Of a stretch of 64,000 nucleotides of DNA, positions 22,622 through 61,793 are shown piece after piece (the first letter of the stretch is position 1; each line of letters starts with the position of its first letter). Below the pieces are notes generated by a model that saw only the letters and a program-made list of their open reading frames with translations, had not been told where the DNA came from and made no database searches. Origin of the DNA: Halalkalicoccus tibetensis. GTDB taxonomy: Archaea; Halobacteriota; Halobacteria; Halobacteriales; Halalkalicoccaceae. The stretch covers positions 1 to 64,000 of the forward strand of contig NZ_JBBMXV010000001.1 in NCBI RefSeq assembly GCF_037996645.1. Direction: 5' to 3'. The position numbers and the translations under genes are program-made.

Positions 22622-22771
22622 ATGGCATCATTCGAGACCGCGGAACGGCGTATGCTCGAGCGACAGATCTGCATGAAGTGCAACGCGCGCAACTCCCGGG
22701 AGGCCGAGCGCTGCCGGAAATGTGGCTACGGCAACCTCCGGCCCAAGGCCAAGGAACGCCGTTCCGTCTGA
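22622..22771 (+). CDS. rpl40e: Large ribosomal subunit protein eL40
   Basis: 49 aa: [20 protein letters not shown] then [20 protein letters not shown] with a basic tail. The four cysteines (C-x2-C...C-x2-C) form the zinc ribbon of L40e, which in archaea is encoded without the ubiquitin fusion of eukaryotes. It is found by its own ATG at 22622. A run of hairpins follows it immediately. Confidence 0.95.
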
Positions 22772-22799
22772 GGGACCTTTTTCGTCGTCGGGTGTCCTC

Positions 22800-22979
22800 G
22801 CGCCCTTCGGGCGCTGCGGGCACCACTCCTCGAAAAATCTCCTCCATTGCCGGACTACGTCCGGCAGGCAGTCAGAGCTTTGCTCTGACTACATCACCAG
22901 AACGCGAAGCGTTCTGGTTAGCAGCCAGAAACCGGCGGTTTCTGGCGACAAAAAGGCTGGCACGGCGGAGCCGCGCCAG
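22800..22979. repeat. Array of six consecutive hairpins between rpl40e and tRNA-Leu
   Basis: Six inverted repeats follow one another, each with a different stem and a 3-nt loop: 22800-22814 (gcgccc, loop ttc), 22849-22865 (gccggac, tac), 22870-22890 (agtcagagc, ttt), 22897-22917 (ccagaacgc, gaa), 22924-22946 (gccagaaacc, ggc) and 22957-22979 (ctggcacggc, gga; one mismatch). All but the last are perfect. There is no open frame of interest. This occupies most of the gene-free stretch 22772-23065. Similar arrays lie at 50954-51119 and 61630-61720. Confidence 0.8.
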
Positions 22980-23150: not shown

Positions 23151-23235
23151 CTTTTGAACTACCAGATAATAATTATTTAGAAAATAGACTACAGTTAGTA
23201 ACAATTATAAAGACAACTGTGGCTCAATTCTACCT

Positions 23236-24816
23236 ATGATCTATACACTATTAGCTCTCTTGGCCATTTTTATACCCTTTGTACTGTCTATTTTATTAGT
23301 ACTTGACGTGATCCTTAAACGCCTCCATCTATACTGGTGGGTCTATTTTGTATCTGGATTACTTGGTCTCCTATCATTCTCTTTTTCCATTTACGGAGAT
23401 AGTAATAGATATCTGAATATTATCGGTTTTATATTAATTTATATATCAATGTTATCTGGGAATAACATTCAAGAACGAATTCTTGCCTTGTTAGATCGGC
23501 TAGGATATTGGGCTTTAGTGTGGTCTGGATTATTGATTGTGATCTTTGTCATACTATTTGTAGGATATAAACCTCTCTTCTTAGATCTCCTTTATATATT
23601 TGATATCATTCATATTTTATTCATCATTTTTGCTATGTTTGTTGTTTCACTCTTAGTATTCATACTTCCTATTTGGCTTTTAACTTGGGGCCAAAGCACA
23701 AGGCTCGTCACTAACCCTGTTAATTCTCTACACTTTCGGTCATGGTATATATTATTACGAACTATTTTCCAATTCGGACTTTCTGGATTACTTATCGGTA
23801 TCTATGCATCTGGTAAGGGAGCTGCCAGGAGGCTCCCCTCGTTAGGAATAATCTCATACGCTTATTTACCAATTATATTATTATTGGTTGCTGCAATCAC
23901 TTTTGGTTTCTTTAGCGAAGATGCTTCTTTAGACATAATTGAGGTAAATACTTTTATACCTGTATTTATTGGGATAATAACTATCAGTACAGCCGTATAT
24001 ACATTTCTTATAAATCAGCTAAACAATAATGTGGGAACTGGGCAGGTTTCTGAGTACCTTTCGATAAATGTGTTTTTAATGAGGTCTATACTGATTACTT
24101 CTGTTTTGGGTCTCATAGTTGCAGCCTTCGGGGCTTTAGAAGGGATAGCTGAAGAGCTACTGGCTCTACTCATAGCCTTTTTTGCCGGGATATCTATTAT
24201 TCTCTCCCTCATCCTTATTGAAAGATCGATGGGGTTAGGACTAAAAGACCCTCTTGGTTTACAAACTACAATTGTCCGGAAATCATCAACAGAATTTATA
24301 ATGAACGAGTTACGCAGGAATATTTCACGAGAAATTTTAGATAAGAAAACAAATAAACACGACAATGATACATCGAATATAGTACGAGCAAAAAATATTG
24401 GAATAAAAAATAATGTTTATATCACTGATATTGATCTCTCTAATTTGCCGAAAGAGATCACTATTACAGATTGGGATATCTCAATCGGCAGCCGAATTAG
24501 TTCTCCAAACGACCCTGTATTTCGCATAGGAGCAGATAAGCATGTTAAAGAAAGAGATATCGGATTTATAAAGTATGACTCCTGTCAATCGTTACAAAGC
24601 ATTAATATCCCTAGGAAAAACTTAGAGACAGTCCTCTATAGGATCAAAAAAACTGGAATTGAATGCATACACGAAGATAACGAGCTACGTTTGAAAGAGT
24701 GTATGGATCGATTTGAATTGATCGGAAGGGATCTATCAGAACCTATGGTAGCACTACAACCAAACTATACAAACAATTCTAACGTAGTTCCTACTCTATT
24801 TTTACCACATATCTGA
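23236..24816 (+). CDS. Polytopic membrane protein of unknown function on an AT-rich island
   Basis: 526 aa. The first 330 or so residues contain about ten strongly hydrophobic segments; the rest (about 190 aa) is soluble. In the soluble part 'NVYITDIDLSNLPKEITITDWDISIGSRISSPNDPVFRIG' loosely recalls the beta-rich C-terminal domain of DUF2254-type membrane proteins, but the similarity is weak. The gene is very AT-rich, rich in Ile, Leu, Asn and Lys, and uses codons unlike its neighbours, so it is almost certainly acquired. It begins 86 nt after tRNA-Leu. Location and composition would suit a defence or mobile-element gene. No function can be assigned. Confidence 0.7.
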   Translation: MIYTLLALLAIFIPFVLSILLVLDVILKRLHLYWWVYFVSGLLGLLSFSFSIYGDSNRYLNIIGFILIYISMLSGNNIQERILALLDRLGYWALVWSGLLIVIFVILFVGYKPLFLDLLYIFDIIHILFIIFAMFVVSLLVFILPIWLLTWGQSTRLVTNPVNSLHFRSWYILLRTIFQFGLSGLLIGIYASGKGAARRLPSLGIISYAYLPIILLLVAAITFGFFSEDASLDIIEVNTFIPVFIGIITISTAVYTFLINQLNNNVGTGQVSEYLSINVFLMRSILITSVLGLIVAAFGALEGIAEELLALLIAFFAGISIILSLILIERSMGLGLKDPLGLQTTIVRKSSTEFIMNELRRNISREILDKKTNKHDNDTSNIVRAKNIGIKNNVYITDIDLSNLPKEITITDWDISIGSRISSPNDPVFRIGADKHVKERDIGFIKYDSCQSLQSINIPRKNLETVLYRIKKTGIECIHEDNELRLKECMDRFELIGRDLSEPMVALQPNYTNNSNVVPTLFLPHI

Positions 24817-24831
24817 GATTTATTATACGAA

Positions 24832-25005
24832 GTGTCGAAGAAAAACCACCGAAATAATAGAATAAAAACTGAACAATTCCTCATTCCTATTTATACGACT
24901 ATTATTTATCTATCTAATTTAGAAGTTGTTGACAATAAAGATGATCTTTTGGAGCTTATAGATGACACAGATGATGGAAATATTTCTATTGATAATCTAC
25001 GTTAG
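24832..25005 (+). CDS. Possible small AT-rich gene or gene remnant, 57 aa
   Basis: A GTG-initiated frame 15 nt after the membrane-protein gene. It reads VSKKNHRNNRIKTEQFLIPI, then a short hydrophobic stretch (YTTIIYLSN), then an acidic tail 'VVDNKDDLLELIDDTDDGNISIDNLR' to TAG 25003-25005. The change from basic to hydrophobic to acidic looks protein-like, and the spacing would suit co-transcription. It could also be the end of a deleted larger gene. The remaining sequence to about 25060 is AT-rich and shows nothing else. Confidence 0.35.
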   Translation: MSKKNHRNNRIKTEQFLIPIYTTIIYLSNLEVVDNKDDLLELIDDTDDGNISIDNLR

Positions 25006-50822: not shown

Positions 50823-50935
50823 GGAGAAGCGAACCGCGAGCGAGCGTTCCGCGGCGAAGTGTCGGCCAGATAGATGGTGCGGACCGCGAGCAGCGAAGCT
50901 GCGAGCGGTAGCGCGGAGCGACTGTAAGGAGCGAT

Positions 50936-51119
50936 GCGCGCTTTTGGTGGCTCGCAGGACGCCTCGCGTCCTGCGGCACGCGCGGGACCTACGGTCCCGC
51001 AAGACAGCTTTTGCCGAGTGAGCGGTCCGAAGGACCGCGAACGTGGTTCGAGATGGCAAAGCCATCTCGTCATTACGAGAGATGCTCCGCATCTCTCGAA
51101 CGACAGCGCAAAAGGTGCG
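50936..51119. repeat. Array of five hairpins with shared boundary motifs, before rps24e
   Basis: Gene-free stretch 50823-51171. Three motifs shared with the copy at 61656-61720 frame it: gcgcttttggtg (50938-50949), agcttttgccgag (51006-51018) and agcgcaaaaggtgcg (51105-51119). Between them are perfect hairpins: 50954-50974 (gcaggacg, loop cctcg), 50982-51000 (gcgggacc, tac), 51022-51038 (gcggtcc, gaa), 51049-51069 (cgagatggc, aaa) and 51076-51098 (cgagagatgc, tcc). Stem sequences differ from each other. Upstream, 50823-50930, is GC-rich filler with gcgagc repeats and no gene. Confidence 0.8.
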
Positions 51120-51171
51120 TCCCGAAATCCTTTTACGCGCTTCAGCGGGAAGTATGAGGTAACTGAGTATC

Positions 51172-51495
51172 ATGGACATCGAAATCGTTTCGGAGGAGGA
51201 GAACCCGATGTTGCACCGCACCGACGTGACCTTCGATATCACCCACGACGAGGCCACCCCCGAGCGCCTCTCCGTGCGCGACAGCCTCGCGGCGAAGCTC
51301 AACAAGGACGCCGAGGAGGTCGTCATCCGCGAGATGAACACCAAGTTCGGGATGCGCACGACCGTCGGCTACGCGAAGGTCTACGAGAGCCCCGACTTCG
51401 CGCGCGACGTCGAGCAGGAGCACATGCTCGAGCGCAACAAGATCACCGCCGGCGACGCCGAGGGCGAGGGCGCCGACGAGGGTGAGGGGGCATAA
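51172..51495 (+). CDS. rps24e: Small ribosomal subunit protein eS24
   Basis: 107 aa: 'MDIEIVSEEENPMLHRTDVTFDITHDEATPERLSVRDSLAAKLNKDAEEVVIREMNTKFGMRTTVGYAKVYES', the S24e core, with an acidic halophile tail. Its stop overlaps the start of rps27ae (TAATG). The order S24e-S27ae-Kae1/Bud32 is conserved in archaea. Confidence 0.97.
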   Translation: MDIEIVSEEENPMLHRTDVTFDITHDEATPERLSVRDSLAAKLNKDAEEVVIREMNTKFGMRTTVGYAKVYESPDFARDVEQEHMLERNKITAGDAEGEGADEGEGA

Positions 51496-58944: not shown

Positions 58945-59052
58945 ATGGACCGGCAGTTCGTCTGTCAATTGTGTGGCGAGCGTTTCGAGAAGCGGGATTC
59001 GTTAGTGACGCATGGGTTGGAGGAGCATCAGGACGTGGGGGAATCGCGGTAG
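58945..59052 (+). CDS. Very small C2H2 zinc-finger protein, 35 aa
   Basis: MDRQFVCQLCGERFEKRDSL then VTHGLEEHQDVGESR. It is a textbook C-x2-C-x12-H-x4-H finger, with almost nothing else. The ATG begins 1 nt after the TAG of the PCD gene, so it is probably co-translated with it. Single C2H2 fingers of this size occur in haloarchaea and are thought to bind nucleic acid or proteins. The gene ends where the AT-rich island begins. Confidence 0.75.
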   Translation: MDRQFVCQLCGERFEKRDSLVTHGLEEHQDVGESR

Positions 59053-59110
59053 GTTCGCTACTGTTCGATCCTATCGTATGGGGGAGAGGAAATCGTCGAG
59101 GTCGTAGAAG

Positions 59111-59145
59111 GTCATTATCTAGATAATGATTATCGTGATAATGAC
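59111..59145. promoter_or_regulatory. Nested inverted repeats at the island border
   Basis: tcattatctagataatga (59112-59129) is a perfect 18-bp palindrome. The outer arms gtcattatc (59111-59119) and gataatgac (59137-59145) also form a 9-bp inverted repeat, and attatc-gt-gataat overlaps both. The site lies between the ends of two converging genes (C2H2 finger and KAP remnant). It could terminate transcription in both directions or mark a recombination border. Confidence 0.45.
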
Positions 59146-59193
59146 TTAGTGGCTCTGAGTCTAAGACAGAAATATTATTGTATGGTATGTATT

Positions 59194-61379
59194 TTAACTT
59201 TCTTCACTTCCCGAATCGAGTATCCGTTCTGAAGTACGCCATGTAGATGGGTCATCAGTAGCCGCTCCTGCTTCATAAAGTTCGAACCCTTTCTCGTATA
59301 TTCGGATTAGATCTGCCTCATCTTTTTCAAGATCTTCCTTGTCTATACTACTAACCCATTCTTTGAGATCTGACAAGTCTATTATTTTCAGTACGTATTC
59401 TATATCAACAAATGATTGCGTTCCAGATTCATACGCTGAAGCATACCTTGATTGTGAGATAAATGAATTGAGGACAACTAGCAAAGAATCGGTATCCGTT
59501 GATACATCGCTAACCCATTCTTTCGCTTGATTAGATGTAGACCACTCCTCCCATTTCAAAAGCACCCTGTCTAAATTGGGTACACTCTCCAATTGGTTCT
59601 CGTCAGCTGCTTGCTCAATTTTTGAAACTACTACGTTTTTCAGACTATCAATCTGAGACTGGGTTAGCATTCGCTGTGTTTTCTCAAGGGGCTCTGGATC
59701 GCCACCACCAACTCCGTGCTCTCTGAGTGTGGACTCTATGTAGAATACGGGCAAATATACACTGTCGCCCTCTGAAATAGCTTCATCTAGTAAACCACCT
59801 CGTACATCTCGAACCATTGACTCTAGTATGTCATCTATAAATTCGAGAATAACCCAATTGCTGCCTCTATCTAAGGCACTGTATGAGGGGTCTGCTCGTA
59901 TGAGATCGTCGCCTACAATGAATAGACTATAAAAGAAGGGCTTGACGTTCTCAATATCATTGAGACTGGTCTGATCAAGAAGTTGGTTTGCTTTCGTCCT
60001 ACCGTGCTCTCCGCCCTGTTCGACTAAATCTTCGAATGCTGAGGCGTAGTCCTCCTTATTGTCGTGTGAATGAAATGAATCAAACTCATCAATACGGAGT
60101 TTGTCATCAGGGACAACTTGACGGAGATAGTGATCTATGACTTCTGGATCACATATTCTACGTCGTTTATTATATGTTTGATTGTTCTCCCGTATCTGAA
60201 GGTTGGAAAAGCTCCTGCTCCTTGCTCTTGGAAATAAATATGATACAATCGTTTTCGCGTTTTCTATGCTTTCCTCATCTTTCTCATCACTCGGAAGTGT
60301 CTGAAACAGTTCTTCATAATCCACAGTTCTCGAAGACAAACGGTTCTGAGATTTCTTACCAACGAATTTTTCTGGATTGTCTCGGATAAGTAGATAGGCA
60401 TCTCTGTGAAATAGCCGTAAGGTTTCTAGACAAACTAGATCTACGAAGTTGATATCCCTAGAGTAAGCCATTGATGCAGAATCAACAGCGTTAGACAACC
60501 TTACTGCATCTCGTGGCGTATTAAGTGCCGGTGAGATCCCTTTTCCGAATATTCGTTGCCAATGATCCACATTAAAAATTGGATCTTCACGTTCAAGTGT
60601 TATATTGAGTCGTCTAGTAAAGAAACCTTAATTGAGTTATTCTTGGGAACTGGAATTGTTTTGGGTAGTTGGATAATCTTATCTAGGTATTCTTCTCCAT
60701 TGCTGACTCCTCTTTCTCCTTCCAATGCGGTAGACACAATTTCGTAATCAAAGGCGAGAACATAGGTAGTATTTGAGAAATCGGCAACACTATTGATAAG
60801 TCGAAACATTTGTTTAATCTCATTCTGGGTGAGGCGGTCCATATCGTCAATAAATATGTATATCCTTTGATCTAAGTCTTCAAGATCTTCTGAAATAGAT
60901 CGTTTGACTTCTTCCATATTTGGATCATCTACTTCCAAAGCCTACGAAAGAATCTCTAAGAATGGGCCAGCAGGTACACCTGTAGTTGGAGTAAATGGGA
61001 TATTTGAAGCGGCAGAAGCATATTTCGAAAGTTTGTTGCGTATTTCGCTTAATCCGTCTCTTCCATCCAAGCCAGCACCGATCTGTGAGAAGAACTTGTT
61101 AATCAAGTCGGCTTGACCAGAAAACCACCATGGATTGAACCAAATAATCATGGGGTCTTCTTCAATCTTATTCAGATAATATTCTATGAAATTGAGTACC
61201 GAGCTTTTCCCAGATCCCCAGGGTCCATACAGACCAACTACTACTGATTCTGGCGGCGACCTATCATGAACAGTCTCTGCTAGGCTCTGAGCGTAGCTGC
61301 TGTATCCTAGGGTGTCGAACTGTGGATCAGTTAAAGCAGAATCTGATAACAGATCTTGTTGATTAGTGTCTCTGGTCAT
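59194..61379 (-). pseudogene. KAP-family P-loop NTPase broken by a nonsense codon and a frameshift
   Basis: A gene for about 728 aa on the minus strand in AT-rich sequence. Part 1 (61379 to 60945) has Walker A GLYGPWGSGKSS near residue 49 and the KAP hallmark 'IIWFNPWWFSG'. An in-frame TAG at 60942-60944 then interrupts it; the same frame continues with Walker B 'IYIFIDDMDRL' and 'LINSVADFSNTTYVLAFDYEIV'. Near 60600-60620 the frame shifts by one, and part 3 runs to 59194 ('WQRIFGKGISPALNTPRDAVRLSNAV...'), a helical C-terminal domain. KAP NTPases include phage-exclusion proteins, so this looks like a decayed defence gene. Translation of the N-terminal part alone is possible. Confidence 0.8.
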
Positions 61380-61655
61380 AATCTCCCATCTACGACAATT
61401 ACGTTAAACGTGACGGTAGGAAATGAATACCGATCAGTAATATACCTGATTACCATCATAAACTAAATTTCTATATAGGTGTGAACAGATTTGAATACAC
61501 TCTAATAATCTATTCGATCCATTATCACTATTTTGTGCTGTTTGAGCGGATTTCCTTGTCTCGTAACCGGCTTTTCGTGCCCGGCTGCTAGGGACTTCAC
61601 CGCGAGTGACCGAAGGAAACGAGCGGTAGCAGAAGCCGACCATCGGGAGGCTTCT

Positions 61656-61720
61656 GCGCTTTTGGTGCAGCTTTTGCCGAGCGACTGAGCGAAGCGAAGG
61701 AGCGCAGCGCAAAAGGTGCG
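61656..61720. repeat. Third hairpin-repeat copy, beside tRNA-Thr
   Basis: Same three boundary motifs as at 50938-51119, but shorter: gcgcttttggtg (61656-61667), agcttttgccgag (61669-61681) and agcgcaaaaggtgcg (61706-61720). Just before it, cagaagcc (61630-61637) and ggcttctg (61649-61656) form an 8-bp stem. The gene-free stretch 61380-61721 otherwise holds AT-rich island sequence (to about 61550) and GC-rich filler. The element ends 1 nt before the tRNA 3' end. Confidence 0.75.
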
Positions 61721-61721
61721 A

Positions 61722-61793
61722 AGCCTAGGCCGGGATTTGAACCCGGGGTCTCGTCCTTACCAAGGACGCGCTTTACCGCTAAGCTACCCAGGC
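61722..61793 (-). tRNA. tRNA-Thr (anticodon GGU)
   Basis: 72 nt on the minus strand. Acceptor gcctggg pairs with cctaggc (one G-U), discriminator T. The anticodon arm cgtcc-ttggtaa-ggacg gives anticodon GGT, and the T arm contains ggttcaaatccc. No CCA and no intron. A hairpin repeat and the AT-rich KAP island lie directly downstream of its 3' end. Confidence 0.95.

Follow-up and report, generated by a model that had tools for sequence, protein, structure and literature searches.

A dispersed family of multi-hairpin elements with T-tracts on both strands at the edges of haloarchaeal genes

The window analysed here, a 64,000-nt stretch of the Halalkalicoccus tibetensis genome, contains three copies of a noncoding hairpin element, situated beside tRNA-Thr, upstream of the S24e gene, and between L40e and tRNA-Leu (Table 1). 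The copy beside tRNA-Thr ends 1 nt from the 3′ end of the convergent tRNA at 61722. Its three exact motifs, GCGCTTTTGGTG (61656-61667), CAGCTTTTGCCGAG (61668-61681) and GCGCAAAAGGTGCG (61707-61720), had been described in a first-pass annotation as a 65-nt copy; while the motifs are in place, the copy itself is longer, with its start at 61598 and an additional pair of hairpins, P1 and P2. Immediately after P2 comes the first T-tract (TTTT, 61660-61663), and the third stem, P3, encloses a variable hairpin (61678-61708); its A-tract is a T-tract on the opposite strand. The predicted fold has z = -4.15 on the plus strand and -2.20 on the minus strand.

The long copy upstream of S24e contains an exact match to each of the three motifs at 50938-51119, with order and orientation unchanged, as had been claimed; each of them is exact at only these two sites of the window. 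This copy consists of P1 (50883-50909), P2 (about 50910-50941), a T-tract (50942-50945), two cargo hairpins (50950-51004), motif 2 (51005-51018), three further cargo hairpins (about 51019-51105) and motif 3 (51106-51119). It stops 2 nt before the S24e promoter CCGAAATCCTTTTA, its end being the exact edge of the conserved promoter CGAAATCCTTTTA. The promoter, TTCGAAATCCTTTTA, is itself nearly invariant across the order (S24e upstream regions L256-L285).

The third copy, between L40e and tRNA-Leu, lacks the exact motifs yet preserves the frame, read on the minus strand as a hairpin (22979-22957), a T-tract (22954-22950), the cargo, a second T-tract (22837-22833) and the P3 hairpin, with AAAAAGGTCCC terminating at 22772. 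All the sites noted in the window are thus genuine members, the L40e/tRNA-Leu frame with its T5 tracts joining the two exact-motif sites, and T4-T5 tracts are present on both strands in all three copies.

Table 1. Coordinates of element copies, their parts and adjoining features in the window
Feature	Position	Strand	Basis or remark
Third copy, five-T variant, four-hairpin cargo	22772..22979	-	z = -8.3
L40e gene; stop codon abuts the end of the third copy (0 nt)	22622..22771	+	
Long copy, upstream of S24e	50883..51119	+	covariance model, motifs
S24e promoter (BRE/TATA)	51122..51135	+	conserved across haloarchaea
Ribosomal protein S24e gene	51172..51495	+	translation; ortholog search
Copy beside tRNA-Thr, full extent	61598..61720	+	covariance model R1, 141.7 bits; motifs exact
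Hairpin P1, ACCGC..GCGGT, 2-bp closing steps with tandem GA/GA between	61599..61627	+	
Hairpin P2, GCAGAAGCC-gaccatcggga-GGCTTCTGC	61629..61657	+	
Stem P3, GCAGCTTTTGC (61667-61677) pairing with GCAAAAGGTGC (61709-61719)	61667..61719	+	
tRNA-Thr(GGT), convergent neighbour of the copy	61722..61793	-	

The joined 23-mer CTTTTGGTGCAGCTTTTGCCGAG, allowing up to 3 mismatches, has 9 matches in ten genomes of the window's family (seven of them in its genus) and none when the pattern is reversed, which together with the exact matches rules out plain dinucleotide chance as the origin of the motif recurrence. Nine copies gathered by sequence motif alone align over ~125 nt, and RNAalifold recovers three stems from this alignment, with compensatory double changes in 18 of 34 pairs. 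The common plan is an element of ~120 nt comprising hairpins P1 and P2, a T-tract, a conserved spacer, a second T-tract, one or more variable hairpins and a matching A-tract. P1 and P2 are built of 2-bp steps interleaved with tandem GA/GA mismatches; P2 leads into CTTTTGGT, and in P3 SCAGCTTTTGC pairs with GCAAAAGSTGSG around the variable hairpin. In a larger alignment of 63 copies from many families, 93% of cells are paired, 307 cells have double-sided changes (shuffles give 72.5), and the covariation score is 0.395 vs 0.010-0.062 when slid; this alignment, having been fitted to the structure model, leans towards that model, but the motif-only alignment agrees.

The element's stem pairs are almost exclusively Watson-Crick (4760, vs 109 G-U out of about 5200 and 51 A-C). 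Such rarity of G-U pairs is expected if both strands must fold, although a mutational process that perfects palindromes would explain it equally well. As a side observation, the ladder-like helices, in which two Watson-Crick pairs alternate with tandem GA/GA, and the near absence of G-U may reflect template-switch palindrome correction.

A covariance model found copies in at least 122 of 146 haloarchaeal genomes and in at least 47 of the 56 genera of the order. At least 14 copies (E <= 1) are present in the window's own genome, which thus holds more than those of the window, and four genomes in which more candidates were scored hold at least 72, 45, 39 and 18 (E <= 0.01). All of these counts are lower bounds, since T4 copies were used to build the model, which overlooks T5 variants, among them the copy at L40e and several at S24e. 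A 20-nt core pattern, run against 85,000 genomes, matched 59 loci, of which 47 are halobacterial; the model matches most of the halobacterial loci but none of the other 12, which we regard as chance. In Rfam, no family other than tRNA passes its gathering threshold, and a ZMP-ZTP riboswitch hit (18.4 bits, E 0.41, vs 39 bits needed) is a chance match. We found no published description of the element in the open-licence literature; apparently, this haloarchaeal family has so far gone undescribed.

To place the element relative to genes, we called the genes around 173 distinct copies with a codon-bias ORF caller and tRNAs with ARAGORN. Oriented in the element's sense, the gaps fall into 74 plus/minus, 37 minus/minus, 32 plus/plus and 12 minus/plus cases. 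Convergent gaps thus make up 74 of 155 (48%) with an element vs 25 of 232 (11%) without one at the same loci, while divergent gaps account for 12 of 155 vs 90 of 232, the remaining 117 element-free gaps being co-directional. In 76 of 103 cases, compared with 7% expected under random placement, the distance between the element's 3′ end and a convergent stop codon is -3 to +6 nt, and the commonest distance is 2-3 nt; the p-values for this abutment (1e-63) and for the gap-type contrast (5e-19) are overstated, since copies at orthologous genes are not independent. Twelve of the 173 copies abut a tRNA 3′ end, and going by this raw share, tRNAs look over-represented among abutted genes. Where a same-strand gene lies downstream, its start is 31-63 nt away in 27 of 47 cases, i.e., the element ends at the promoter edge. 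The 5′ side is loosely placed, mostly at 10-400 nt.

The first-pass annotation had proposed an association with translation genes. Positions are indeed non-random, gene 3′ ends, tRNA 3′ ends and promoters being abutted, but annotation of the neighbours rejects a link to translation only, as the abutting genes are diverse core genes including CDC48, PhoU, PCNA, RadA, DNA polymerase D, the thermosome, SdhA and antiporters.

With respect to these gene ends, T4-T5 tracts lie within ~6-10 nt on the minus strand, while on the plus strand a T-tract follows P2. The explanation that we favour, with moderate confidence, is that the element serves as an interchangeable bidirectional transcription terminator or insulator cassette that disperses in genomes. 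On the plus strand, P1 and P2 lead into a T-tract, the conserved spacer (RGTSCAG) and a second T-tract; on the minus strand, a gene ending at the element has SNACC-TTTT and then a stable hairpin behind it, the former at ~6-10 nt from the stop codon or the tRNA 3′ end. Given hairpin/T-tract signals on both strands, RNA polymerase should stop from either side, and such a stop would separate convergent genes or shield a downstream promoter. The internal hairpins are exchangeable and variable in number, and copies spread and are replaced within genomes, some of them by insertions that duplicate 30-75 bp of the target gene end.

We infer termination by likeness to Haloferax volcanii, where a T-stretch serves as the chief terminator, with T5C stopping transcription in vivo at 95%, and where hairpins precede 503 termination sites (PMC7237163). 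The element likewise has a T-tract after a hairpin, behind genes; however, the T-stretch terminators are short single signals, whereas the copies described here belong to one sequence family and share a conserved cassette that has several stems, exchangeable hairpins and T-tracts on either strand. Several features count against the terminator. In most scored copies the tract is a T4, which falls short of the T5C signal whose activity is proven; 12 copies sit in divergent gaps, into which no gene runs; and the tandem GA mismatches stabilise one strand only. Moreover, a plain terminator needs neither conserved P1 and P2 nor strict 0-4 nt abutment; the latter is not accounted for by termination alone and may reflect targeted insertion. 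Finally, orthologous sites are often without the element, which must therefore be dispensable at a given gene.

The strong covariation and the GA/GA-separated helices that stabilise the plus-strand RNA would also suit a structured RNA acting post-transcriptionally, as a 3′ UTR or an independent small RNA recognised via its GA-rich helices and controlling mRNA stability or processing. We consider this quite improbable: the minus/minus and minus/plus gaps offer no upstream gene to transcribe the plus strand, the upstream flank is weakly conserved and a shared promoter was not seen, a structure formed in RNA only would be expected to have more G-U pairs, and Rfam has no match. Strict Watson-Crick palindromes with hardly any G-U, together with convergent placement, where the supercoils of two genes meet, could instead point to a role in the DNA itself, in which a cruciform or protein-binding site lying between converging transcription units would relieve supercoils or help to organise the chromosome, as has been attributed to REPs (PMC3733652). 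Conservation, however, is highest in the T/A-tracts and the spacer, not in a dyad binding site, and supercoil relief needs no abutment to tRNA ends or promoters, which renders such a role more improbable still.

Besides its possible function in termination, the element bears signs of mobility. Direct repeats of 30-75 bp flank 14 of the 173 copies (alignment scores 26.5-66.5, the next being 17), most of them representing the upstream gene's 3′ end with its stop codon, and the second repeat copy begins 0-8 nt past the element's 3′ end. From reading the sequences, we take the duplicated ends to include those of the genes for SufS, citrate synthase, a heme-binding protein and diphthine-ammonia ligase. 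These gene-end duplications indicate that some copies were inserted. One copy in genome G002 duplicates a gene's 5′ end at a site that is unduplicated in the congeners G001, G003 and G004. Around a G002 copy (L036, contig C2, about 1390-1720), the N-terminal coding segment of a small conserved gene stands on both sides of the element, the far duplicate being closer to the congeners' N-terminus than the near one. Elsewhere (L190, about 900-1400), an element copy is surrounded by several partial copies of a tRNA-Ile 3′ end, which suggests that insertion next to this tRNA happened more than once. Decayed target duplications at stop-abutting copies are in marginal excess only (p = 0.012), and most copies have none. 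Copies at unrelated genes of the same genome share 80% identity on average and up to 99%, vs 70% between genomes, which points to ongoing copying or gene conversion.

Comparison of orthologous sites bears out the proposal that this dispersed family keeps its frame constant and varies its hairpin cargo: the frame persists while hairpins are gained, lost or replaced. At S24e, the frame occupies the same spot in all six examined species of the genus, with differing hairpins or with T5 replacing T4; between the window and G001, the long copy's hairpins differ in a compensatory manner, e.g., GCGGGACC-tac-GGTCCCGC vs GCGGGAGC-ttc-GCTCCCGC. The cargo also changes at menB in another genus, where 7 of 10 species have a T4 or T5 form of the element abutting the stop codon and one species has an additional insert of ~62 nt with two hairpins within P3. 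In a menB copy of G093 (L318, about 1330-1490), half of the element appears to be tandemly duplicated around an N, possibly an assembly join or a copying intermediate. At the PhoU 3′ end, at least 12 genomes out of 30, belonging to different families, carry the element. SufS was considered as a further conserved site and discarded, the element being sporadic there (2-3 of 30 genomes). At tRNA-Thr, the element is present in 2 of 7 family genomes, those of the window and of one congener with nearly the same P3 hairpin, and the five remaining genomes have unrelated sequence.

Taken by themselves, the 14 copies between direct repeats of a gene end, the near-identical copies at unrelated genes within one genome and the differing presence among related species could describe a small mobile element (REP-, PATE- or SINE-like), selfish or semi-selfish in nature, whose insertion at gene 3′ ends brings the host no gain and is only made harmless by the T-tracts and hairpins; repeat copies that differ at replacement sites, as dead duplicates would, fit as well. 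We hold this to be unlikely, if still worth weighing, in view of the long retention at PhoU and menB despite hairpin replacement, the compensatory changes that preserve pairing, the ~90% of copies without target duplication, and the fact that no transposase or autonomous partner was noticed. A possible, if doubtful, combination of both ideas is a mobile family of two-way terminators whose members arrive, by insertion or copying, exactly at the borders of genes (stop codons, tRNA 3′ ends, promoter edges), generating the gene-end duplications and swapping hairpins on a fixed T-tract frame.

In build the element resembles a terminator, and in distribution bacterial REPs. REP/BIME sequences are GTAG- and CGTC-tagged palindromes of bacteria in which G-T stem pairs have been noted (PMC3733652). 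Both kinds are palindromic, short and scattered outside genes, occur many times in a genome and lie mostly downstream of genes, in convergent or unidirectional gaps. However, a REP is a single palindrome of 20-40 nt with an unpaired tag, whereas the element has ~120 nt, three stems and a T/A-tract frame, and its aligned copies lack the GTAG/CGTC tag; it also differs in its strict 0-4 nt abutment, its few G-U pairs and, in this analysis, its restriction to haloarchaea. The haloarchaeon Haloquadratum walsbyi has PATEs and small mobile repeats (SMRs), the latter bounded by terminal inverted repeats, with SMR-A inserting into PATEs or IS605-type elements; neither type makes target duplications (PMC3119063). 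Like them, the element is a small, dispersed, palindromic repeat free of a transposase; unlike them, it has gene ends as its sites and duplications of 30-75 bp in 14 of 173 copies, with none in the rest. MITEs are similarly noncoding and dispersed with some target duplication, but the ends of the element, P1 and P3, are not mutual inverted copies, no terminal inverted repeats were seen, the duplications are long and variable rather than fixed and short, and the left boundary is fuzzy. The attC cassettes of integrons carry genes and come with recombination sites and an integrase, whereas the element's cargo was hairpins in every copy read.

If the combined reading of a mobile two-way terminator family is correct, the element would insulate transcription across the whole genome in an evolvable layer that a dedicated mechanism spreads. 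As a conserved, covarying element present in most of the haloarchaeal genomes sampled, with tens of copies in many, it offers a way into the question of how these archaea keep tightly packed convergent genes apart. Placement to the single nucleotide, together with the long duplications beside some copies, suggests copying of a kind that has not been described for small repeats known so far, and hairpin turnover provides a natural experiment on the effects of hairpins in archaeal termination.

Two neighbourhoods in the window also differ in composition. Between a dehydratase-like gene and the tRNA-Thr copy lies an AT-rich island (59000-61560, ~40% GC vs 68% in the genome) with an apparent KAP-type P-loop NTPase gene split over ORFs; an att-type repeat bounding this island at the tRNA-Thr copy was sought and not found. 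G001 and G005 have other AT-rich sequence at the same spot, so that tRNA-Thr looks like an integration hotspot. A second AT-rich stretch (23160-25000, 33-40% GC) begins directly after tRNA-Leu.
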